Assembly: GCF_001570525.1 (NCBI RefSeq) | Contig: NZ_BBXC01000007.1 | Span: 733,364 to 797,363, forward strand | Source of the DNA: Herbidospora sakaeratensis | GTDB lineage: Bacteria > Actinomycetota > Actinomycetes > Streptosporangiales > Streptosporangiaceae | Length of the DNA stretch: 64,000 nt | Direction of reading: 5' to 3' | In this document: positions 12,908 to 36,822 of the stretch, piece after piece | How the letters are laid out: every line of letters starts with the position of its first letter | Numbering within the stretch: the stretch's first letter is position 1 | Notes under the pieces: model-generated | What the model saw: only the letters and a program-made list of their open reading frames with translations | What the model was told of the DNA's origin: nothing | The model's database searches: none | Translations under genes and position numbers: made by a program

Positions 12908-15048
12908 GCGAACATTCCTTTCAAACGCGGCCAGTGCTCCGAGGCGCAGAGCACCGGAGGACGCTCGATGGGCGCGGGAAGGGTGACCTCCCGCCCACCG
13001 CTGAGCACCGCGCCGGTCCACACGTCCACCCACTCGCCCGGGGGCAGGTAGGCGGCGATCTCGGTGGCGCCGGGCGTGGTGACGGGGACGACGAGCAGCG
13101 CGTCGCCCAGCTTGAACTGCAGGGGGTACGACCACAACTCGTGTTCCATGTGGTCGAAGAACAGACCCCGCATGAGCGGCTTGCCGCCGCGTACCGCAAC
13201 CGCCGCCTGCTCGGCCAGGTAGGGCACCAGGCGCTCCCTGAGCTGCGCGAACCTCCGGAAGACCGGAATCACGGTGGCGTCGCCGGTCTGTTCGGCGATG
13301 TTCCAGGGCGTGCGGTCGCGGATGGGGGTGCGGTGGTGGTTGAACTCGGAGTGGTACTGCATGATCGGCATGAACGCCGAGGTCCCGGCCGCGCGCAGGT
13401 AGAGCTCGGCGGTGGGCAGGTCGCCGGAGAACCCGGCCAGGTCCCAGCCCCAGTAGACGATCCCGCAGGCCGAGGCGGTGATCCCGGCGCGGATCGACGA
13501 GGCGAAGGCCGTCCACGTCGAGTCCTCGTCGCCGGCCCAGAACGCGCCGTGCGGCTGCGAGCCGGTGAAGCCGGCCCGGCTGAACGTGACCGGGGCCTTC
13601 CCGTGGGCGCGCAACAGGTCGCCGAAGGCCCGCGCGTAGTGCACGGGGAACAGGCCGTTCCCGTCGTCGCCCCGGCGGCCGTCGGCGTACCGCAGGTCGT
13701 GGCCCCACGCGTGCTCGCCGCCGTCGGTCTTGAAGCCGTCCACGCCCAGTTCGGAGACCAGGTAGGCGCGTTTGGCCGTCCACCAGTCGCGGACCTCCGC
13801 CGACGACAGGTCGGGCATCAGCGCCAGCGGGAACCACCAGCCCCGGTTCCGATAGGGCTTGCCGTTCGCCTCGCGGACCCCGTAGCCCTTCTCGACCAGC
13901 TGCCGCGCGTCGACCGCCGCCTGGTGGCGGGGGTGGGGGCGCGTCTTCTGCAGCGGGATCTGCCAGAGCAGCACCTTGACGTCGCGGGCGTGCAGCTCGT
14001 CGATCATCCCCTTCGGGTCGGGCCACGGCCCGTCGGCGGGGAAGGCGTAGTCCTTGAGGGTGTGGGGTTCCTCCGACGGCTCGTAGACCGCGCCCCGGAA
14101 CGCCGTGAAGGTCGTCTCGTCGCTCCACGCCTCGATGACCAGCGCGCCGACCGGGATGTCGTGCTCGCGGTGCCGGTCCATCTCCTGCAGCACCCGGGCC
14201 TGGGTGTTCCACTCGTTGCCGCTGGCCCAGAGCCGGAACACCCACGGGGGCAGCTCCGTCGGGTGGCCCACCTCGTCGAGGAAGGCGGCCAGCACGGCGG
14301 CGGGCTCGCCGTCGTAGAAGACGATCTCCAGGTCGTCGCCGGAGACCTCCGCCTCGACGGTCAGCAGGTCGCCGTCGGCGGAGTACCAGGTGCGCCGCGA
14401 CGTGCGCACGTGGAAGCCCCACGGCTCGTCGCCGACGACGAAGGCGAAGGGCATCGGCAGGTACGTCCGGTTCGCCGCCCCCTGCCCCTTGTACTGCTCG
14501 AACACGACCGCGTCGAGGTCGTTGCCCCGCTGGTCGACGGCGTTGAAGCGCTCGCCGAACCCGACCAGGTGGTCGCCGGGCGCGAGCCGGACCGCGAACC
14601 TGACCCGGCGCGGCCCGTCGGCGTCGACCAGCTGCTCGACCGAGCCCGGGACGACCCGGTCGGTCCCGCTGACGCCGACCTTCCCGGGCGTCCACCGCGC
14701 CGCCGACACCTCGAACCATCGGCTGGTCCGCCCCGCCTCCCGGAACCGGTAGCGGTAGCGGGTCCCGAACGCCAGCGGACCCGTCGTCACCGTCCACGAC
14801 CCGTCGGCGGCGCGGGCCGCCTTGGCCTGGGCGGCGGCCAGGTGCCCGCCGTCGGTGACGACCGGCCCCCCGTCCCCGTAGAGGGGCGTCATGGGCAGGT
14901 CGGCGCCGTTCCACTCGCAGACCACCTCGGCGGCCGACGACCGGACCCGCAGCTCGACCGGCTCGCCGTCGAGCGGCAGCGGCGGAACCCGCTGGTCCTC
15001 CGATTCGGCGTAGGGGTGGCCGGAGCCGTAAGGGCGATGACGGATCAC
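12904..15048 (-). CDS. Cytoplasmic GH31 alpha-glucosidase-like enzyme
   Basis: A 714-residue GH31 enzyme with no signal peptide, so it probably acts on imported oligosaccharide. The catalytic barrel spans about 265-560: nucleophile Asp442 in GVDGFKTDGGE and acid/base Asp507 in FWAGDEDST. The N-terminal beta-sandwich is preceded by RHRPYGSGHPYAE. The catalytic region is very close in layout to the secreted 1087-residue paralogue (both have ANEWNTQ/GNEWNTQ and WSDE), so the two may share a substrate family. The start is GTG 15048, inside the GTGA that ends the GH15 gene, with GGGAGC upstream. Its stop overlaps the next ATG. Confidence 0.88.
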   Translation of the reverse strand: MIRHRPYGSGHPYAESEDQRVPPLPLDGEPVELRVRSSAAEVVCEWNGADLPMTPLYGDGGPVVTDGGHLAAAQAKAARAADGSWTVTTGPLAFGTRYRYRFREAGRTSRWFEVSAARWTPGKVGVSGTDRVVPGSVEQLVDADGPRRVRFAVRLAPGDHLVGFGERFNAVDQRGNDLDAVVFEQYKGQGAANRTYLPMPFAFVVGDEPWGFHVRTSRRTWYSADGDLLTVEAEVSGDDLEIVFYDGEPAAVLAAFLDEVGHPTELPPWVFRLWASGNEWNTQARVLQEMDRHREHDIPVGALVIEAWSDETTFTAFRGAVYEPSEEPHTLKDYAFPADGPWPDPKGMIDELHARDVKVLLWQIPLQKTRPHPRHQAAVDARQLVEKGYGVREANGKPYRNRGWWFPLALMPDLSSAEVRDWWTAKRAYLVSELGVDGFKTDGGEHAWGHDLRYADGRRGDDGNGLFPVHYARAFGDLLRAHGKAPVTFSRAGFTGSQPHGAFWAGDEDSTWTAFASSIRAGITASACGIVYWGWDLAGFSGDLPTAELYLRAAGTSAFMPIMQYHSEFNHHRTPIRDRTPWNIAEQTGDATVIPVFRRFAQLRERLVPYLAEQAAVAVRGGKPLMRGLFFDHMEHELWSYPLQFKLGDALLVVPVTTPGATEIAAYLPPGEWVDVWTGAVLSGGREVTLPAPIERPPVLCASEHWPRLKGMFA

Positions 15049-28775: not shown

Positions 28776-29417
28776 ATGAACGACTTCTGCGCGGTGCTGT
28801 TCGATCTCGACGGCACGCTGGCCGACTCCGACGCCGCGGTGGCCAGAGCCTGGGCCGCCTGGTCCGTCAAGCGCGGCGTCGACCTCGAGACGATCATGCG
28901 GGTCTCGCCGGGACGGCCGGGCGTCGAGACCATCGCCGAACTCGGCGCCCACCTGACCCCGGCCGAGGTCCTGGCCGACGCCGAGGAGAACCTGCGGATG
29001 GAGGAGGCCGACCTCGACGGCGTCTCGGCCGTCCTGGGAGCCCTCGGCCTGCTCGCCTCCTACGAGGATCTCGGCGTGCCCTGGGCCATCGTGACCTCCT
29101 GCCCCCGCCCGCTGGCCCTGGCCCGCATCGGCGCCGCCCGGCTGCCCCGGCCCCGGGTGATGGTCACCGCCGACGACGTCACCCGGGGCAAGCCCGACCC
29201 GGAGTGCTACCTCCTCGCGGCGAGGCTCCTCGACGTCGAGGCCCGCCGTTGCCTGGTGGTCGAGGACGCGGTGGCGGGCGTGCGCGCCGGCCGGGCCGCC
29301 GGGATGACGGTCGCGGGGGTGCGCGGCGTGCCCGGCGCCGACCTCTCCCTCACGGGCCTGCCGGATCTGACGTCCCTCACCGGGCGCTGCGCGCACCGCC
29401 ACGCCGTCGATGCCTGA
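28776..29417 (+). CDS. HAD-family sugar-phosphatase-like hydrolase
   Basis: A 213-residue HAD hydrolase of the beta-phosphoglucomutase/sugar phosphatase subgroup: motif I FDLDGTLADS with nucleophile Asp10 and Asp12, motif II AIVTS, motif III Lys in RGKPDPECYLLAA, and motif IV VVEDAVAGVRAG. The cap domain is the small helical C1 type. AAGGGG precedes the start. The stop overlaps the start of the MFS gene by 8 bases, so phosphatase and transporter are coupled, and a divergent ROK regulator suggests a sugar-related substrate. Confidence 0.92.
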   Translation: MNDFCAVLFDLDGTLADSDAAVARAWAAWSVKRGVDLETIMRVSPGRPGVETIAELGAHLTPAEVLADAEENLRMEEADLDGVSAVLGALGLLASYEDLGVPWAIVTSCPRPLALARIGAARLPRPRVMVTADDVTRGKPDPECYLLAARLLDVEARRCLVVEDAVAGVRAGRAAGMTVAGVRGVPGADLSLTGLPDLTSLTGRCAHRHAVDA

Positions 29418-30621
29418 ACGGCTCGCGCTGTCGATCCACTACGGGCTGGCCGGTGTGCTCAACGCGTTGTGGGTGGCCACCCTGCCCGCCGTCGACGAGC
29501 GGCTGGCGCTCGGTCCGGGCCGGATCGGCACGCTGCTGCTGCTCATGGCGGTGGGCGCGCTCGCCGCGATGCCGTTCGCCGGGCGGCTGGCCGACCGGTG
29601 GGGCAGCCGCCGCCTGCTCCGGCTCGCGGCCCCGGTCTGCGCGCTCGCCCTCGGCGGGGCCGCCCTCGCGCCGTCCTACGGGGTGCTGGCCGTCGCCGTC
29701 GTGCCGCTGGGAGCCGCCACGGGCGTGGTCAACATCGCGCTGAACGTGCACGGCGTCCAGATCGAACGCCGGCTCGGCAGGCCCGTGATGGGCAGCCTCC
29801 ACGGCGTGTGGAGCCTGGGCGGGGTGGCGGGCGGCGCGGCGATCACGGCGGCCCTGGCGGCCGGGGCCGAGGTGCGGACGCTGATGGCGTCGGGGGCGGT
29901 CACGCTGATGGTGTCGTCCCTGCTGCCGGGCCCCTGGCTGCGTGCCGGGCTCCCGGGCCGGGCCGACGGCTCCGACGGACGCGGATCACCCGTGGCGATG
30001 CGTGCGGGCCTGGTTGCGCTGATGGGGTCCGTGGTCTTCGCCGCGTACCTCAGCGAGGCGACCGCCACCGACTGGGCCGCCGTGCACGCACGATGGGAAC
30101 TGGCGGCCGGGCCGGCGACCGCGTCGTTCGTCTACACCGCCTTCGCGAGCGCGATGACGGTGACCCGGTTCCTCGGCGACCCGTTGCGGGGCCGCCTCGG
30201 GCCGGCCCGCACGATGAGGCTGGCCGGCGCCGTGGCGTCCACCGGATACGGCCTGGTCCTCCTCGCTCCGCTCGCCGGAACGGGCGGCCTCGCCTGCGCG
30301 GTCGCGGGCTGGAGCCTGGTCGGGGCGGGCATGGCCACGGTCGTGCCGGTGATCTTCAGCACCGTCGGGGCGACGGCCGGCCGGCCGGGGCGGGCGCTGT
30401 CGGCCGTCACCACGATGAGCTTCGGCGGGGCCCTCACCGGACCCGCCGTCATCGGCTACGTCGCGGAGATGTGGTCGCTGGGCACGGCGCTGGTCCTGCC
30501 CGCCGTCTTCGCCCTCTACGTCGCCCTGGCGGGGCCGGCCGCCGTCCTCAGCGTGGCACGCGGACCGTCTCCACCCACGCCGGAGGCGGCGGCGGGTTCT
30601 CGCCGATCAGGGCCGCGATGA
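29410..30621 (+). CDS. MFS transporter
   Basis: A 403-residue major facilitator with 12 predicted helices, including the motif A variant GRLADRWGSRRLL between helices 2 and 3. The segment VNIALNVHGVQIERRLGRPVMGSLHGVWSLG resembles the YbjJ/FucP-like branch, some members of which transport sugars. It is coupled to the HAD phosphatase; together with the divergent ROK regulator this looks like a small sugar-uptake or efflux unit. Its last 74 bases overlap the convergent VWA gene, encoding a Pro/Gly-rich tail. Confidence 0.88.
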   Translation: MPERLALSIHYGLAGVLNALWVATLPAVDERLALGPGRIGTLLLLMAVGALAAMPFAGRLADRWGSRRLLRLAAPVCALALGGAALAPSYGVLAVAVVPLGAATGVVNIALNVHGVQIERRLGRPVMGSLHGVWSLGGVAGGAAITAALAAGAEVRTLMASGAVTLMVSSLLPGPWLRAGLPGRADGSDGRGSPVAMRAGLVALMGSVVFAAYLSEATATDWAAVHARWELAAGPATASFVYTAFASAMTVTRFLGDPLRGRLGPARTMRLAGAVASTGYGLVLLAPLAGTGGLACAVAGWSLVGAGMATVVPVIFSTVGATAGRPGRALSAVTTMSFGGALTGPAVIGYVAEMWSLGTALVLPAVFALYVALAGPAAVLSVARGPSPPTPEAAAGSRRSGPR

Positions 30622-31705
30622 GCCGGCCCGACTCCGGCTCGTCCGGCCACGGCGTGTGGCCGTCGGTCAGCACGATCACCACGTTGGGGCGGTCGCGGCC
30701 CGCCAGGGCGGCCGTGATGCCCACGCGCATGTCGGTGCCGCCGCCTCCCCCCAGCGTGACCTGCTCGGCCGAGGTGACCCGGGAGACGGCGTGGACGTCG
30801 GCGTCGCAGGCCAGCACCGTCACCCGGTTGCCGTGCACGCCCACCTCGCGCAGCACCCCGGTGACCTCGGCCAGCGCCGCGGCCAGGTCGTCGTCGCCCA
30901 TCGAGCCGGAGGTGTCGACCACGATCGCGACCCGGGGGAGCGGGCGGCGCAGGCTCGGCAGCACCACCCCGCGCATGGCGGCCGACCGCCGCGACGGGCG
31001 GCGGTAGGTGTAGTCGACCGCGCCGCCCGCCCAGGCGACCGCCTCGCGGACCGCCCCGGTGAGCACCTGCCGCCAGTCGACGACCGGTTCGAGCACCTGC
31101 TCCGCCCACCGCTGCCACCCGCTGGGCAGCGTGCCCCGCGACCGCCGGTGCGCCCGCATCGCCTCGGCGGTGTGCCGCCGCAGCGACTCGGCCTCGACCG
31201 GCCCGACCACGGGCACGCCGTCACCGGTCTCCCACGGCGACGCCAGGCCGTGCGCGCCCGACCCGCAGTCGGGCGCGTGCTCGTGCGGCGGCAGCAGCGG
31301 GACGTACTCCTCGAACAGGCGGCCCGGGGCCAGGCCGAACAGGCGCGGCTCCATCCGGCCCGGCGGCAGCGGCAGCCGGTCGGCGAGCAGGTCGTCGTTG
31401 ATCTCGCAGTCCTGCGCGAGGTTGACGCGCAGCCGGTCCCGCTGGTCGGCGGGCGGCAGCCGCCCGGCCCGGCCGTGGTGGTCGCGCAGCAGGTGGGCGA
31501 CCTCGTGGATCCAGACGGCGGCCAGTTCCTCGACGGGGGTGGCGTCGACGAACGCGGGGGAGACGTAGCAGCGCCAGTGCGCGTCGACGCCCATCGTGGG
31601 CACCCGCTCGCTGGGGACGATGGAGAGGGCGTACAGGGCGGTGGCGAAGTAGGGGCGGTCGGCCGCCGCGCGGTAACGCGCGGCCAGCAGCTTCACCCGG
31701 TCCAT
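30548..31705 (-). CDS. VWA-like protein with metallopeptidase-type N-terminal domain
   Basis: A 385-residue protein of the DUF2201-type putative metallopeptidase plus VWA-like layout. The N-terminal domain has HEVAH (67-71), a zincin-type zinc motif, followed by QDCEINDDLL. The C-terminal VWA domain keeps the MIDAS triad: DTSGSMG (264-270), the GGGGGTDM threonine, and a later Asp in TDGH. Such proteins pair with MoxR AAA+ ATPases as metal-dependent adaptors. It is the last gene of the five-gene operon, two bases after the MoxR gene. There is no strong ribosome binding site, so coupling is likely. Confidence 0.85.
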   Translation of the reverse strand: MDRVKLLAARYRAAADRPYFATALYALSIVPSERVPTMGVDAHWRCYVSPAFVDATPVEELAAVWIHEVAHLLRDHHGRAGRLPPADQRDRLRVNLAQDCEINDDLLADRLPLPPGRMEPRLFGLAPGRLFEEYVPLLPPHEHAPDCGSGAHGLASPWETGDGVPVVGPVEAESLRRHTAEAMRAHRRSRGTLPSGWQRWAEQVLEPVVDWRQVLTGAVREAVAWAGGAVDYTYRRPSRRSAAMRGVVLPSLRRPLPRVAIVVDTSGSMGDDDLAAALAEVTGVLREVGVHGNRVTVLACDADVHAVSRVTSAEQVTLGGGGGTDMRVGITAALAGRDRPNVVIVLTDGHTPWPDEPESGRLIAALIGENPPPPPAWVETVRVPR

Positions 31706-31707
31706 CG

Positions 31708-32916
31708 TCAGAGCGCGCCGGACAGCTGGAGGAGGTCGACGAAGGCGTCGATGCCCGGGGGCACCGGCCAGCTGAGGTCGCGCATCGCGGCCAGGTCCAT
31801 CGCCGCGCGGGCCGCGACGTCGGGCACGCCGGCGTCCACCGCCTTGGCCAGCACCACCCACCCGGCCTCCCAGCGGCGCCGGGTCGGGTCGCCCTGCACG
31901 GCCGCCACCACCGCCGTCAGGAAGGCGAGCTGGCGGTCGCCGCGCTCGGGGAGCCGGAACGCGGCCGGGTCGGCGAGCACCCGGTCGGGGTCGGGCAGGT
32001 CGAGTTCCTCCAGGTAGGAGATGAGCTCGACGCCCGCGCCGTCGCCCACCGCGCCGACCACCGCCGCCGCGAGGGCCTCCCGGCCGGTGCCGCTCGCGTA
32101 GGCGACGGCGAGCAGCCTCAGCGCCATCTCCCACGTCCGGGGCGAGGGCCACGCGCCGCCCCGGCTCTCGGCGTCGGCGGGCAGGTGGTGCGTCAGACCA
32201 GGACGGGCGGTCAGGAAGCCGGAGATCGCGCCCCGGGCCTTCGCCACCGCGCCGGAGACGCGCGCCGGGTCGATCGAGGGGACGCGGGCGGCCGGCCAGG
32301 TGCCCGCCAGGCCGCGGGCGACGGTCCGGGGGTCGTGCGTCCAGCGCAGGTGGACGAAGCGGTTGGCCAGCGGCGGGCTCAGGTGCCAGCCGTCGGCCGC
32401 GCTCGACGGCGGGTTCGCGGCGGCCACGACGCGCACCGGCGCGGGCAGCGTGAGGCTGCCGACCCGCCGTTCGAGCACCACCCGCAGCAGCGCGGCCTGC
32501 ACGGCGGGCGGCGCGGACGACAACTCGTCGAAGAAGACCAGCCCCCGGCCCAGCGCGGTCACCCGCACGGCCCAGTCGGGCGGCGCCATCGGCACCCCGG
32601 TCACGGCCGGGTCGTCGCCGACGATCGGCAGCCCGGCGAAGTCGGACGGCTCGTGCACGCTCGCGATGACCGTCTCCAGCGGCAGCCCGAGCCCGGCGGC
32701 GAGCTGCTCCAGCCCGGCCGACTTGCCGATGCCCGGCTCGCCCCACAACAGGACCGGCAGGTTCGCCGCCACGGCCAGGGCGAGCGCCTCCAGCTGGGAG
32801 CTGGCGGCCGGTTCGGTGCGGAAGACGCCCAGCCGCCGGTTGATCTCGTCGGCGGCGGCCAGGCCGTCGTGCTCAGTCGTCGTCATCGCCGTGGTCATCG
32901 CCGTGGTCATCGTCAT
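31708..32916 (-). CDS. MoxR-type AAA+ ATPase
   Basis: A 402-residue AAA+ ATPase. Walker A is GEPGIGKS, Walker B is GLVFFDELSSAPP, sensor 1 is VVAAANPPSS, and the arginine-finger region is LANRFVHLRW, with the order typical of the MoxR/RavA clade. MoxR proteins remodel or insert metals and cofactors into targets selected by a VWA partner, here the next gene. Four in-frame ATGs (32916, 32910, 32898, 32886) occur in a low-complexity stretch (MTMTTAMTTAMTTT) that also encodes the acidic tail of the upstream ankyrin protein in another frame. The true start is uncertain. Confidence 0.88.
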   Translation of the reverse strand: MTMTTAMTTAMTTTEHDGLAAADEINRRLGVFRTEPAASSQLEALALAVAANLPVLLWGEPGIGKSAGLEQLAAGLGLPLETVIASVHEPSDFAGLPIVGDDPAVTGVPMAPPDWAVRVTALGRGLVFFDELSSAPPAVQAALLRVVLERRVGSLTLPAPVRVVAAANPPSSAADGWHLSPPLANRFVHLRWTHDPRTVARGLAGTWPAARVPSIDPARVSGAVAKARGAISGFLTARPGLTHHLPADAESRGGAWPSPRTWEMALRLLAVAYASGTGREALAAAVVGAVGDGAGVELISYLEELDLPDPDRVLADPAAFRLPERGDRQLAFLTAVVAAVQGDPTRRRWEAGWVVLAKAVDAGVPDVAARAAMDLAAMRDLSWPVPPGIDAFVDLLQLSGAL

Positions 32917-34138
32917 CGTCGTCGTCGTAATTCACGTACCCGACCCCGATGCCGGGGTGGTCGCGCTCGATCTCGTCGCGCAGGGCGACCAGGTCCCGGC
33001 GGCGGCGCCGCCGGATGAGGTCGGCCAGTGACCAGTCCTCCCAGTCGGTCACGTCGATCCGCGCCCCGGCCGCGCGCAGCGCGTCGACCAGCGCGGGCGA
33101 GCCGTAGGAGGCCACCGCGTGCAGCAGCGGGGTGCGTTCCCGGTAGTCCTCGCCGTTCACGTCCAGGCCCGCCGCCAGGAGGCGGGGCAGCAGCACGGTG
33201 TGGTCGACCAGGTGCAGCAGGTGCAGCAGGCTGCGCTGACGGCCGTCGCGGACCCGGGGGTCGACGCCCGCGTCCAGCAGCCGGAGCACCGCCGGGGTGT
33301 CGCCGTGCTGGGCGTGCAGGAACAGCGCCCAGCGCTGGGCGCGCAGCCGCCGGGGCAGCCTGCCCTCGCCCGACGTCCACGACTGCTCGACCGCGAAGCA
33401 GCCGGAGACGGCCCCGCCGAGGGCGCGCATGGCGCGTTCGCGCCGCTGCTCGTCCACGCCGTGCTCCAGCTGGAGCGAACCGCCGCCCGAGACGACCTGG
33501 TGCCAGACGCCGCCGCAGCGCACCCTGACCGGCTCGGGCAGGGCCGGCTCCGGCGGGCCCGACGCGCCCGGCGGCAGGCCGGGGCAGAGCCCTTCTCTGA
33601 CCAGCGGGTGCAGATCATCGGGCGTCAGCAGACCGGCGTCCATGAGCACCCGGTCGGGCAGCGAGGCGTCGGTCGCGCCGCCGAGGGCGGCGGTGTGCCG
33701 GGCGTCCCAGAAGTGGCGGGCCGACGTCCAGTCGACCTGGGTGATCATGTAGGGGTCGTCGTCCTCGTCGGCGGGGACGAGGTCCAGCTTCAGCCGCTGC
33801 GGGCCCTCGCTCAGCTCGGGCGTGAACGCCTGGAGTTCGGTGTCGCCGTAGCGGGCCAGGGTGACGTGGTGGTGGGTGCCCAGGGTGCCCGCGCCGTTGC
33901 CGCTGCGGGGCAGGTGCCAGCGCAGCAGCTCCGGTACGAGATGCCGCAGGTCGTCGGCGAGCGCCGGGTCCTTCTCGGCCAGGGCCGGGTCGAAGGCGAC
34001 GTCGACGGCGGCGGCCGCGCAGGCGCCCTGCCAGTCTCCGGCCAGGCGGCGTTCGGCGGACCGCTCGATCATCCAGCGCGGGACGGCGTAGCGGCGGGCG
34101 TGCCGCCAGCGGCTCAGTTCGTCGCGGTCATGGATCAT
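32873..34138 (-). CDS. Ankyrin-repeat protein with acidic tail
   Basis: A 421-residue protein. The first ~260 residues are an unrecognised domain (with DLVPADEDDDPYMITQVDW and GGVWHQVVSGGGSLQLEHG). Residues about 285-385 hold ankyrin repeats (HAQHGDTPAVLRLLDAGVDP, RTPLLHAVASYGSPALVDAL, RAAGARIDVTDWEDWSLADL). It ends in a run of Asp with two HG interruptions. It is probably a protein-interaction or sensor subunit. The ATG overlaps the stop of the LRR gene (ATGA), and the 3' end overlaps the MoxR gene by up to 44 bases. Confidence 0.8.
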   Translation of the reverse strand: MIHDRDELSRWRHARRYAVPRWMIERSAERRLAGDWQGACAAAAVDVAFDPALAEKDPALADDLRHLVPELLRWHLPRSGNGAGTLGTHHHVTLARYGDTELQAFTPELSEGPQRLKLDLVPADEDDDPYMITQVDWTSARHFWDARHTAALGGATDASLPDRVLMDAGLLTPDDLHPLVREGLCPGLPPGASGPPEPALPEPVRVRCGGVWHQVVSGGGSLQLEHGVDEQRRERAMRALGGAVSGCFAVEQSWTSGEGRLPRRLRAQRWALFLHAQHGDTPAVLRLLDAGVDPRVRDGRQRSLLHLLHLVDHTVLLPRLLAAGLDVNGEDYRERTPLLHAVASYGSPALVDALRAAGARIDVTDWEDWSLADLIRRRRRRDLVALRDEIERDHPGIGVGYVNYDDDDDDDHGDDHGDDDD

Positions 34139-35265
34139 CGGTACAGGCTGCCGATCGCGACCACGTCGGGGTGGCCGGGCCCGGCCGGGCGCAGCCGCGC
34201 GGTGAACGACCGCTTGACCTTGCGGGGCAGGCCGGGGCCGAGGCCGACGTACTCCAGGCGGGTGTCGTCGGGCACCCGGGCCAGCAGGCTCTTCGCGCCG
34301 CGCCCGGTGAGGCCGGTGTGCCGCAGCTCCAGACGGCGCAGCGGGCTGCCGGGCAGGGCGGCGGCCAGGGCGTGCGCGCCCTCGTCGCCGGTGGTGTTGG
34401 CGGGCGCGCCGAGGCTGCGCTCCGACGGCGGGCGGCCGAGGTCGAGCGACTCGATGCGGTCGAGCGCGGCGGCCAGCGCCGTCGCGCCGGCCGGCCCGAT
34501 GCCGTTGCCGCCGAGGCCGAGCCGGACCGGCCGCGCCGGGTCGCCCGCGGCGGCCAGCACGGCCGCGCCCTCGTCGCCCAGGTGGTTGGCCGGCAGGTAG
34601 AGCTCCCGCACGCCTCCCTCGGCGACCAGCCGCGCCAGCAGCGGCGCGTCGGCCGGGCCGAGGCCGTTGCCGCCGAGGAACAGCCGCTCCAGCGGCACGT
34701 CGCGGCTGACCAGGGCGGCGACCAGCACCTCCAGCGAGGCCGTCGACAGGCCGGTGTTGACCAGGTCGAGCGTGCGCAGCGTGCTGTTCCAGGCGAGCAT
34801 CCCGGCCAGCGCCCGCACCCCCGCCGCGCCGATCGGGTTGCGCTTGAGCCACAACGCCCGCACGCTCTGGTCGCCGCTCAGCCGGTCGGCCAGCGCCGCC
34901 GTGCCCTCGGGGCCGATGCGGTTGCAGCCCAGGTAGAGGGTGCGCAGGCGGTGGTCGTCGGTGAGCGCGCCGGCGACCGCGCGGGCCCCCTCGTCGCCGA
35001 TGGCGTTGGTGCCCAGCAGCAGGTGGACGGCGTGCGGCGAGGCCGTCGCCACTGGCAGCAGCCGGGCCACGCCGGGGGCGCCGAGACCCTGTTTGCACAG
35101 GTCGACCCGGCCGTCGGGGCGCAGCGCGCCGAGCGGGAAGACCTCGTCGGCCGCGACCACCCGGCTGTCGGCCAGCCGGGCCAGCAGCGGGTCGAGCGCC
35201 GCCGCCTCGGCCGGCGGCACGTCGGGGTGCTCGATCGCCGGGCAGCGTACGGGCACAGGCTTCAC
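34135..35265 (-). CDS. Leucine-rich-repeat protein (ribonuclease-inhibitor type)
   Basis: A 376-residue protein made almost wholly of ~28-residue repeats of the RNase-inhibitor LRR class, for example LRTLYLGCNRIGPEGTAALA, VRALWLKRNPIGAAGVRALA, LERLFLGGNGLGPADAPLLA and VRELYLPANHLGDEGAAVLA: about ten copies forming a curved recognition surface. There is no signal peptide, so it is cytoplasmic. The start is GTG 35265, two bases after the SDR stop, with GGAG upstream. Repeats of this type serve protein binding, sometimes as sensors. Confidence 0.85.
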   Translation of the reverse strand: MKPVPVRCPAIEHPDVPPAEAAALDPLLARLADSRVVAADEVFPLGALRPDGRVDLCKQGLGAPGVARLLPVATASPHAVHLLLGTNAIGDEGARAVAGALTDDHRLRTLYLGCNRIGPEGTAALADRLSGDQSVRALWLKRNPIGAAGVRALAGMLAWNSTLRTLDLVNTGLSTASLEVLVAALVSRDVPLERLFLGGNGLGPADAPLLARLVAEGGVRELYLPANHLGDEGAAVLAAAGDPARPVRLGLGGNGIGPAGATALAAALDRIESLDLGRPPSERSLGAPANTTGDEGAHALAAALPGSPLRRLELRHTGLTGRGAKSLLARVPDDTRLEYVGLGPGLPRKVKRSFTARLRPAGPGHPDVVAIGSLYR

Positions 35266-35267
35266 GG

Positions 35268-36629
35268 TCACCACTCCACCGATCGGTAGTCCTTCAGGAA
35301 GAGTCCGGAGACGAGGTCGCCGCCGACCCCCCGGACGACGGGGTCGTACACCCGCGCGGCCCCGTCGATCACGTCGAGCGGCGGCCGGAAGCGGCTCGCC
35401 GCCCTCTCGGGATGGGGCCGCTCGTCGGTGCACCACCCGGTGTCGACGCTGTTCATGTGGATGCCGCTCGCGGCGTAGTCGGGGGCGGCGGTCCGGGTGA
35501 GCATGTTGAGCGCGGCCTTGGCCATGTTCGTGTGCGGGTGGCGGACGGTCTTGTTCGCCCGCGAGAAGCTGCCCTCCATCGCCGACACCTGCACGACATA
35601 GCGGTCGGGATGCGGCGAGGCTTCGAGCAGCCCCCGCAGCCGCGAGGTGAGCAGGAACGGCGCGAAGGAGTTCACCAGCTGCACCTCCAGCCACTCGGCG
35701 GCGTCGACCTCGTGCAGCCGCAGGCTCCAGCTGTTGCGGTCGCGCAGGTCGAGCGGCTCCCCGGTCTCGTCGAGCATCCCGGCGGGGAAGAGCGCCTCGA
35801 ACTCGTCGGCGGCGACGAGCCCGGCCCCGTCACGGGTGGCCGTGACACTCCTCGACGCGGCGATCTCGCGCGTCGCGGGCCCGGTCGTGCGGCGGATCCG
35901 GGCGGCCGGGCCCTCCAGCGGGAGGTGCTCCGCCGCCGTCACCTCGCGGTGGTAGGCGGCCGGGCGGCGGATCGTCTGGGCCGCGTTGTTGACCAGCACG
36001 TCGAGGTGGTCGAAACGGGCGTGCACGGTCTCCAGCAGGCCCGCCACCCCGGGCAGGTCGAGCAGGTCGACGCCGTGGACGTGCAGCCGGTCGAGCCATT
36101 CGGCCGCGTCGGGCACGGCGGCGTAGCGGCGGGCCGCGTCGGCGGGGAACCGGGTCGTCACGAGGACCTCGGCCCCGTCGCGCAGCAGCTTCAGCGCCGT
36201 CTGGAAGCCGATCTTCACCCGCCCGCCGGTGACCAGCGCCCGGCGTCCGCGCAGGTCGCAGCGGGCGGTGCGGCGGGCCAGGTTCTCCTCGGCGCAGGCC
36301 GGACAGAGCCGGTGGTAGACCGAGTGGACCCGGTCGTAGACGGCCTTGCAGACGTAGCACCGCTGGGTCCCGGCCAGCGGCCGCGAGCCCGTCGGTGTGG
36401 CGACCGGGGGCGCGGAGCCGGGGTTCTGGTCGCGGTGGCGTTCGGCGGCCGCGATGACGACGTCGTCGTGCCGGCGGCGGTCGGCGCGGCGGGCCGCCTT
36501 GCGGGCCTTCTTGCCCGCCTGGTAGACCTGCGCGGCGGCCTCGCGGACCGGCGCCCAGCGCTCGTCGTCGGGATCGGCCGCGCGGGCCTCGGCCAGGACG
36601 CGCAGGCAGGTCTCCACGTCAGAAGCCAT
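35268..36629 (-). CDS. SDR-fold protein with N-terminal zinc ribbon, catalytic Tyr absent
   Basis: A 453-residue protein. Residues 1-70 are a basic helical segment (KKARKAARRADRRR); C91-x2-C94 and C109-x2-C112 make a zinc ribbon. The Rossmann part starts ALVTGGRVKIG, a variant of TGxxxGxG with Lys in place of Gly, and keeps NNAAQ and the Ser in VSAMEG. The usual YxxxK reads TNMAK, so the catalytic Tyr is replaced. Dehydrogenase activity is doubtful; NAD(P)-dependent sensing is an alternative. It is the first gene of the five-gene operon, next to a tRNA-like element. Confidence 0.82.
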   Translation of the reverse strand: MASDVETCLRVLAEARAADPDDERWAPVREAAAQVYQAGKKARKAARRADRRRHDDVVIAAAERHRDQNPGSAPPVATPTGSRPLAGTQRCYVCKAVYDRVHSVYHRLCPACAEENLARRTARCDLRGRRALVTGGRVKIGFQTALKLLRDGAEVLVTTRFPADAARRYAAVPDAAEWLDRLHVHGVDLLDLPGVAGLLETVHARFDHLDVLVNNAAQTIRRPAAYHREVTAAEHLPLEGPAARIRRTTGPATREIAASRSVTATRDGAGLVAADEFEALFPAGMLDETGEPLDLRDRNSWSLRLHEVDAAEWLEVQLVNSFAPFLLTSRLRGLLEASPHPDRYVVQVSAMEGSFSRANKTVRHPHTNMAKAALNMLTRTAAPDYAASGIHMNSVDTGWCTDERPHPERAASRFRPPLDVIDGAARVYDPVVRGVGGDLVSGLFLKDYRSVEW

Positions 36630-36657
36630 GCGCGCGTCCCCCTCCGGCAACAGAAGT

Positions 36658-36734
36658 GACACGGCCGACCGGATTCGAACCGGCGTCCTCCGCATCGATT
36701 TGGGGCGCGACGACCTCTGCGCTACGACCGTGTC
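36658..36734 (-). tRNA. tRNA-like element, anticodon arm degenerate
   Basis: On the minus strand there is a continuous 10-bp terminal stem (GACACGGTCG with CGGCCGTGTC, one G-U), a D-arm (GCGC, 10-base loop containing GG, GCGC), and a perfect T-arm with loop TTCGAAT at 36668-36684, contiguous with the terminal stem. The anticodon region (CCAAATCGATGCGG) forms at most two base pairs, and no CCA is encoded. It looks like a tRNA pseudogene or an unusual tRNA-like RNA; identity cannot be assigned. It lies 29 bases upstream of the SDR start. Confidence 0.5.
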
Positions 36735-36783
36735 GCCGGAAGGTTAGCGCACATCTCCGACATTCCGGATCTTGTCCCTGTCA

Positions 36784-36822
36784 GGGCGCGACGGCCTCTG
36801 CGCTACGACCGTGCGGCCGAAG
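36784..36822 (-). repeat. Duplicated 5' half of the tRNA-like element
   Basis: This 39-base stretch repeats 36703-36742 with only a few changes: GGGCGCGACG, CCTCTGCGCTACGACCGTG and the final CCG-AAG are shared. It contains the acceptor and D-arm half but not the T-arm. The copies are direct repeats 81 bases apart, between the SDR operon and the cupin gene. Confidence 0.65.

Follow-up and report, generated by a model that had tools for sequence, protein, structure and literature searches.

Bacterial MoxR ATPases are often encoded next to proteins with a von Willebrand factor A (VWA) domain. According to PMC7159879 and PMC9976466, known MoxR-VWA pairs serve dedicated clients, and a common denominator was proposed in which the VWA domain captures a substrate and ATP drives its remodelling. 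In the ternary systems described (VMAP, iSTAND, FtsH, beta-propeller, and TERNS3; PMC7159879, PMC8195603), which occur in actinobacteria too, the MoxR ATPase, the VWA protein and a further component are encoded in one operon. Here we analysed a 64,000-nt stretch of the genome of the soil actinobacterium Herbidospora sakaeratensis (contig NZ_BBXC01000007.1, positions 733,364 to 797,363; hereafter the window), which holds an operon that likewise has an ATPase of the MoxR clade adjacent to a VWA protein with the aspartates of the metal ion-dependent adhesion site (MIDAS). Three further genes complete the operon, for a short-chain dehydrogenase/reductase (SDR)-fold protein, a leucine-rich repeat (LRR) protein and a third component with ankyrin repeats (ANK). 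The five genes stand behind a tRNA-mimicking RNA, the tRNA-like element (TLE), and together point to an RNA-and-protein machine; no description of the operon or of the RNA was found in the open-licence PMC literature, other journals not being excluded. The TLE had been overlooked in the original prediction, made from the sequence of the window; once it is included, what had looked like a protein operon becomes a probable RNA-protein system. The conserved operon is real, and the TLE makes it more unusual than had been proposed.

Unlike the components of the described ternary classes, the third component of the window matched nothing but ankyrin models in Pfam, a comparison in which a Pfam model for every class was not checked; the bpMoxR match (21.6 bits) fell below its cut-off of 27. 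The VWA domain of the window ends a 385-aa protein that has a zincin domain instead of a C-terminal effector, and the operon is accompanied by a tRNA-like RNA. The VWA protein belongs to DUF2201, which the main text of PMC7159879 nowhere mentions. The NorQ-NorD and RavA-ViaA pairs resemble the window operon in that a VWA protein with a MIDAS, partnered with an AAA+ ring, acts on a client (PMC9976466). DUF2201_N and DUF2201 domains, with an ATPase gene adjacent or three genes off, are found in the N4-like Erwinia phage S6 (Schitoviridae; L179) and in Thermus phage phiFa (L180), respectively, with 24-30% identity among the matches listed; neither of the two stretches fetched holds a TLE. Several phage DUF2201 records are named HNH endonuclease; the S6 protein matched DUF2201 models only (Pfam). 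To our knowledge, the VWA partners in NorQ-NorD and RavA-ViaA are not DUF2201 proteins, and we know of no ankyrin, LRR or SDR partner or RNA element for these pairs. As for the RNA, the nearest case of a tRNA-like RNA in an operon known to us is rsr-yrlBA-rtcBA, and Ro60 itself carries a VWA domain. In that operon the RNA-binding protein Ro60/Rsr is encoded with the tRNA-like Y RNA YrlA, suggested by the authors as a possible competitive inhibitor of an anticodon nuclease (PMC7790460). The RNA of the window is instead compact, a tRNA-like body of ~85 nt whose anticodon arm is variable, and no TROVE, RtcA or RtcB match was obtained among the operon and near-flank proteins scanned with Pfam. A protein of the SDR type is also at work in human mitochondrial RNase P, where SDR5C1/MRPP2, but not its activity, is needed for tRNA handling (PMC10602865). 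We claim no orthology; the window SDR has a zinc ribbon and no catalytic Tyr, and no TRMT10C- or PRORP-like partner was seen in the operon.

The TLE of the window (36655..36739, minus strand) lies 25 nt upstream of the SDR gene and has a D arm, a T arm, an acceptor helix of 10 bp (7 + 3) and an imperfect anticodon arm. It departs from the elongator cloverleaf in the length of this helix, in a 6-nt loop (AAUCGA) and in forming four of the five anticodon pairs. ARAGORN calls an odd tRNA at 36658-36732. The Rfam tRNA model RF00005 gave 38.6 bits (gathering threshold 29), and our own model of the family, R1, 88.6 bits, this copy being part of the model. A decayed second TLE (36745..36820, minus strand; 27.6 bits with R1) keeps its 5′ part, and at the matching position the sister locus L079 holds an intact copy (13080-13165, 93.5 bits). 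The window TLE is near-invariant across the seven Herbidospora-type loci compared, and the proximal TLEs of this type carry the 6-nt loops AAUCGA, AAGCGA, AUGCGA or AUUCGA within a nearly invariant body.

For the alignment we used a pattern that required D- and T-arm motifs and left the acceptor and anticodon arms free. It gave 77 matches in 48 loci, of which a T-arm signature kept 60 (40 loci); 56 were aligned, with four Herbidospora copies (L080, L081, L098, and L099) omitted as duplicates. Results showed that TLEs are a structured RNA family. Eighteen of the 23 pairs vary on both sides, 92.1% of cells pair in the cloverleaf, and 170 cells were counted in the covariation analysis against 55.9 in shuffles (0/500). 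The covariation score reached 0.402, compared with 0.179 after shuffling (0/500) and at most 0.125 when the structure was slid along the alignment. The acceptor helix is three pairs longer in 26 of the 32 TLEs from type A loci (those with a VWA protein like that of the window), as against 9 of the 24 others. The anticodon arm is hypervariable: its stem is fully paired in 29/56 copies, a 7-nt loop with U33 is present in addition in 23/56, and loops of other lengths occur in 12/56. Among the other tRNAs at the same loci, 31 of 35 have U33.

The TLE is tightly linked to the system in the GTDB family of the window, of which 150 genomes were scanned genome-wide with R1. The model was built mostly from SDR-adjacent copies, and since it also scores tRNAs, it gives matches in every one of the 150 genomes. 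At 75 bits or more there were 49 matches, all of them at the system: 47 lie within 8 kb of an SDR gene on the same strand, three of these inside the operon of one genome (G123), and the remaining two stand immediately upstream of orphan ankyrin paralogs, in G123 and in G001 (a broken gene), two sites that lie outside the model. Just below 75 bits, members and tRNAs mix: position identifies as TLEs the matches in G128, G103 (next to an LRR remnant), G102 and G076, and those in G113 (73.3 bits), G119, G088 and G099:C5 were read as ordinary tRNAs. When TLEs are taken as matches of at least 69 bits near the SDR gene, 28 of the 49 SDR-bearing genomes have both LRR and TLE, three LRR only, three TLE only and 15 neither (p = 3e-7, the genomes being related). 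A genome-level Fisher test of TLE against SDR was not used, as it is circular, the TLE set being defined by nearness to SDR. Locus by locus, a TLE was found upstream of the SDR gene in 23 of the 24 operon loci examined (the exception, L089, has its contig cut inside the LRR gene), and ARAGORN placed at least one tRNA-like gene there, on the same strand and with varying anticodons, in 22/22. Of 118 SDR-family loci, 41 have a tRNA-like gene within 700 nt upstream, concentrated in SDR-LRR loci; one of these genes (L113) resembles an ordinary tRNA-Leu, and two of the loci (L081 and L099), on contigs of equal length, are probably from one genome. Where SDR-LRR occurs without the ANK-MoxR-VWA triad, the TLE is intact in L039, L040 and L042 and weaker in L041 (71.9 bits) and L054 (64.6 bits). 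We regard the RNA-protein linkage as firm within the family and as partial in the wider class, where R1 at 1e-14 gave 29 matches in 296 genomes, 17 of them at the system and one (L201) 9.4 kb from SDR-LRR.

In four loci a second, distant AAA-DUF2201 pair adjoins both an SDR gene and a TLE, the latter on the strand opposite to the neighbouring AAA-DUF2201 genes. Two of them, from Kutzneria (L160) and Streptacidiphilus (L176), were found via SDR; there the TLE lies 5′ of the pair, a related third gene is also present, and the two DUF2201 proteins are 69% identical to each other with HEARH in both. The other two, found via the TLE, repeat the arrangement with SDR (L207) or SDR-LRR (L212). It follows that TLE, SDR and an AAA-DUF2201 pair came together at least twice. 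Outside actinobacteria, tRNA-like genes were seen directly upstream of SDR genes on a Deinococcus plasmid (L183, 3662-3746, 44.1 bits, with a GC-rich inverted repeat between), in Candidatus Parabeggiatoa (L104, 8650-8738 and 8742-8827, ~34 bits each) and in SAR324 (L150, 8884-8970, 50.6 bits), and ARAGORN called one just upstream of SDR in a cyanobacterial metagenome-assembled genome (MAG; L108). These resemble the actinobacterial TLE less closely, and ordinary tRNAs may be among them.

The five genes of the window run on the minus strand from 36629 down to 30548 in the order SDR, LRR, ANK, MoxR, VWA, with the positions and spacings that had been predicted. They encode the SDR-fold protein (35268..36629, 453 aa), a ribonuclease-inhibitor-type LRR protein (34135..35265, 376 aa), ANK with its C-terminal ankyrin repeats (32873..34138, 421 aa), a MoxR-type AAA+ ATPase with Walker A GEPGIGKS and Walker B FFDE (31708..32916, 402 aa) and the DUF2201 protein of the VWA gene (30548..31705, 385 aa). 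A 2-base gap separates SDR from LRR if the latter starts at GTG 35265; the in-frame GTG 35274, a possible start favoured by relatives, would turn it into a 7-base overlap. LRR and ANK overlap by 4 bases, ANK and MoxR by 44 (less if downstream in-frame ATGs are used), and MoxR and VWA are 2 bases apart. Pfam gave adh_short for SDR (66.8 bits), LRR_6 for LRR (72.4), Ank_2 for ANK (31.8), AAA_5 for MoxR (32.6), and DUF2201_N (95) and DUF2201 (66.1) for the VWA protein. The NCBIfam scan of the operon proteins was uninformative, and the STM4015-family label for the LRR protein was rejected (14.8 bits vs. a cut-off of 275). Scanning with PADLOC-DB 2.0.0 for known anti-phage systems gave no match over most of any model, only partial ones (an ankyrin stretch matching PDC-M72A, 34.3 bits, and ATPase stretches matching RtcR and IetA).

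All five genes occur together in the window and in 21 other loci, for which the gene maps (based on a simple codon-position G+C caller) show one order and varied flanks; the order is therefore not due to chance. These loci come from Streptosporangiales and from Catellatospora (Micromonosporaceae), named carriers being Actinomadura terrae (Thermomonosporaceae in NCBI), A. rayongensis and Catellatospora methionotrophica (Micromonosporaceae in NCBI). The five genes had been predicted to behave as one unit, and they indeed travel together across genera and orders. Family-wide searches and gene maps ruled out the opposite case, in which MoxR-VWA would be conserved alone and LRR, ankyrin and SDR genes would be present by chance in this strain. 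Among the 150 family genomes, relatives were found in 53 for VWA, 49 for SDR, 29 for ANK, 31 for LRR and 64 for MoxR, counts that use different thresholds and, for MoxR, take in general paralogs. The VWA gene is present in 7/7 genomes searched of the window's genus (one partial), and class-wide a full-length VWA of at least 72% identity occurs in 12/394 genomes; G484 and G102 gave partial matches. A full-length type A VWA is accompanied by LRR in 20/20 family genomes and, on the same contig, in 7/8 further class genomes.

The operon is nonetheless made of two modules, SDR-LRR and ANK-MoxR-DUF2201, which separate and join. SDR-LRR without the triad is found, e.g., in L039-L042, L046-L049, Kutzneria, Lentzea and the cyanobacterial MAG. 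L041 and L042 have the flanks of L087, L096 and L097 with ~80-100 nt of other sequence in place of the triad, after which the flank resumes at the identical base, and L054 retains SDR-LRR in a genome (G102) that has only VWA fragments there. Conversely, at five loci that were found via the TLE, LRR-ANK-MoxR-VWA stands without an SDR match in the stretch fetched; in SDR-less loci the TLE lies directly upstream of LRR.

The SDR protein has a basic helical N-terminus, a Cys4 zinc-ribbon-like segment and a TGGRVKIG loop. Both features noted in the original prediction, a zinc ribbon and a missing catalytic Tyr, were borne out. Thr367 takes the place of the Tyr, four residues before Lys371, and alignments of 22 and of 45 members, the larger drawing on several phyla, show no variation at these two residues or at C91, C94, C109 and C112. 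The Tyr loss is thus a family trait. The AlphaFold2 model (pLDDT 89.6, pTM 0.88) shows the SDR fold with confidence and, at the N-terminus, a long helical part, and the top Foldseek matches listed are SDR enzymes. The Rossmann fold is present (Pfam, AlphaFold2, and Foldseek), but the cofactor-type glycine motif TGxxxGxG is altered to TGGRxKIG. With this motif and no Tyr, the proposed sensing of NAD(P) would seem not supported. The protein carries net positive charge at pH 7 in 20/22 cases. A sequence search gave at least 578 matches to the family, and the nearest named record among the matches listed is from Herbidospora galbida (88% identity; Streptosporangiaceae in NCBI). The Tyr-less HxTNMAK SDR family (L103-L178) is very widespread, mostly without an LRR neighbour, and by record titles extends to Actinomycetota, Proteobacteria, Verrucomicrobia, Gemmatimonadetes, Cyanobacteria and others. 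A phage family, phrog_3142 (596 positions, labelled FabG-like), also matches the window SDR, best in a C-terminal stretch (128 bits).

Both repeat proteins had been proposed to recognise a target, and the identities among 21 operons fit this better for ANK. ANK has the lowest identity of the five proteins in 208/210 pairwise comparisons (mean 0.553, compared with 0.748 for SDR, 0.754 for LRR, 0.778 for VWA, and 0.838 for MoxR; L095 was left out because its ankyrin match is weak), and such divergence would fit the role of a recogniser or adaptor. The LRR protein, as conserved as SDR, appears to be structural; it has the invariant patches DGRxDLCK, YLGCN, WLKRNP and a C-terminal SxxR and is net positive at pH 7 in 19/20. 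The window ANK lacks a middle segment found in other genera and, in part, in two relatives of the same genus, and two or more ankyrin genes were called in L091, L092, L093 and L194. Pfam found ankyrin matches only in the third component, and for a model of the Actinomadura terrae protein (four sequences, pLDDT 72.3) the Foldseek matches listed are ankyrin proteins, or designs or fusions with them.

The DUF2201 protein combines a VWA domain with an intact MIDAS (DTSGS, GGGGTD, and LTDG) and a predicted zincin-like domain with HEVAH and a downstream acidic DCEIND. Besides type A we distinguished type B (L059-L068), with VWA proteins ~50% identical to that of the window, and type C (L069-L077), with 36-46%. 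HEVxH is present in all 29 readable copies of types A (19/20, L083 being called without its N-terminus) and B (10/10). In all nine type C copies H, Q or L replaces the catalytic Glu of HExxH, but the two His and the acidic motif are kept, as is the MIDAS with small variants. This pattern indicates that the zinc site is general and that the catalytic Glu goes with the clade having the third-component family; the split may reflect a single evolutionary event. Third components, seen at 9/10 type B loci (not at L060), are homologous to ANK over most of their length (hhalign E 4e-51, 395 columns, from alignments sharing no sequence), and the two scanned gave no Pfam ankyrin match. Type C pairs have other upstream genes, for three of which a weak match to the third component (E 1e-4, probability 54) spans 62 columns. 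It is plausible that, as had been proposed, the ATPase and VWA protein act on a bound protein.

In the light of these data we tentatively favour a two-module RNA-protein system, in which SDR-LRR would bind the TLE and the triad would be the responding, ATP-driven and possibly proteolytic module. The first module would consist of one or several TLEs, the Tyr-less zinc-ribbon SDR (missing at some loci) and the LRR protein, the second of a ternary MoxR-VWA complex with ankyrin repeats on its third component and a zincin domain on its VWA protein. SDR-LRR could be a platform for the TLE body, as the SDR protein of human mitochondrial RNase P suggests, with the variable anticodon arm as the exposed, informative part. 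The ankyrin protein may provide the link to the MoxR motor; after a change of state in the RNA or its partner, ATP hydrolysis would let the VWA/zincin protein act on a bound protein, by remodelling or cutting it. The purpose is a guess, most likely surveillance of factors that attack or mishandle tRNA, or a decoy against them. We consider possible, with less confidence, a more specific form of ribonucleoprotein surveillance, in which bait TLEs with a diversified anticodon arm, held by the catalytically altered SDR and the LRR protein, would gate an ankyrin-MoxR-metallopeptidase machine. This machine would be triggered by cleavage, modification or capture of the bait, whether through tRNA-targeting toxins, through phage factors or through stress nucleases.

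Several observations weigh against such an RNA-protein system. The SDR family is widespread, and at 77 of the 118 loci examined the 700 nt upstream contain no tRNA-like gene. No TLE was found at the ten type B triad loci (fetched stretches of 11-16 kb). Ten of the 29 class matches (L193, L197, L198, L202, L203, L204, L206, L208, L209, and L210) have no component in the 13-14 kb around them, and the surroundings of that in G219 were not examined; TLEs may thus also act in trans. All seven genomes that hold these 11 matches have a VWA of at least ~50% identity elsewhere, which is only suggestive, as six of them are from one VWA-rich genus. Five of the ten component-less copies carry a Trp-like CUCCA loop. 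As for the RNA itself, constancy of the D and T arms is partly by construction, given the motifs of the search pattern, 23/56 TLEs could pass as ordinary tRNAs in the anticodon arm, the window TLE alone folds no better than shuffles (z -0.66), and no consensus promoter or terminator was seen around it. Finally, every mechanistic step of the machine is one that we infer.

Position would also suit a cis-acting 5′ UTR leader, a tRNA mimic that controls the operon through tRNA-maturation processing or autoregulation by the encoded proteins. Leaders of this kind occur elsewhere. Of the 31 family genomes in which a TLE was located near SDR, 24 have the closest one ending no more than 90 nt from the matched SDR start, on the same strand, and copies precede LRR in the SDR-less loci and the two orphan ankyrin genes. 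We nevertheless find a leader unlikely, as there are up to four copies per locus, the orientation is opposite to the AAA-DUF2201 genes in four loci, component-less copies exist in other genomes, and the anticodon loop varies while the body is constant.

That TLEs are chargeable tRNAs, donating amino acids to a tRNA-dependent reaction whose acceptor enzyme would include SDR-LRR and be matured by the MoxR module, seems quite unlikely. Many do retain a 7-bp acceptor stem, a T arm and a readable anticodon, and tandem copies differ in anticodon. Yet the irregular loops (12/56), the fully paired stem in just 29/56, and the three extra acceptor pairs of most type A copies fit poorly with charging, and Pfam revealed no aminoacyl-transferase or ligase in the operon. 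There is similarly little likelihood that MoxR-VWA, with or without ankyrin, is a dedicated maturation chaperone of the SDR-LRR pair and the TLE incidental. The dedicated clients of known pairs (PMC9976466 and PMC7159879) agree with this, as does the near-constant company of LRR with type A VWA while SDR-LRR can do without the triad. The loci with LRR and the triad but no SDR match speak against it, however, as do the absence of a catalytic Tyr in SDR and the 49/49 family matches at the system, which are not incidental. Last, tRNA genes are common attachment sites and the operons occupy different chromosomal contexts, but we rejected as highly improbable a plain integration site of a mobile island with no functional tie to the operon, since TLEs constitute a distinct family, are found in tandem, between LRR and ANK and between ANK and MoxR in L095, and before orphan ankyrin genes, and the near flanks in the window are ordinary genes (integrases were not searched at other loci).

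These near flanks encode P450, ROK, HAD, MFS, cupin, Nramp and hydrolase proteins. The MFS transporter gene (29410-30621, plus strand) converges with the DUF2201 gene (30548-31705, minus strand); their 3′ ends overlap by 74 bases, an arrangement kept in the sister locus L079.

If the two-module RNA-protein system is true, MoxR-VWA machines would gain an RNA component, and the large family of Tyr-less zinc-ribbon SDR proteins would gain a concrete hypothesis, the binding of tRNA or tRNA-like RNA. TLEs would represent look-alikes of tRNA, a family that would be annotated as odd or pseudo tRNAs, and their linkage to the operon predicts protein-RNA complexes.

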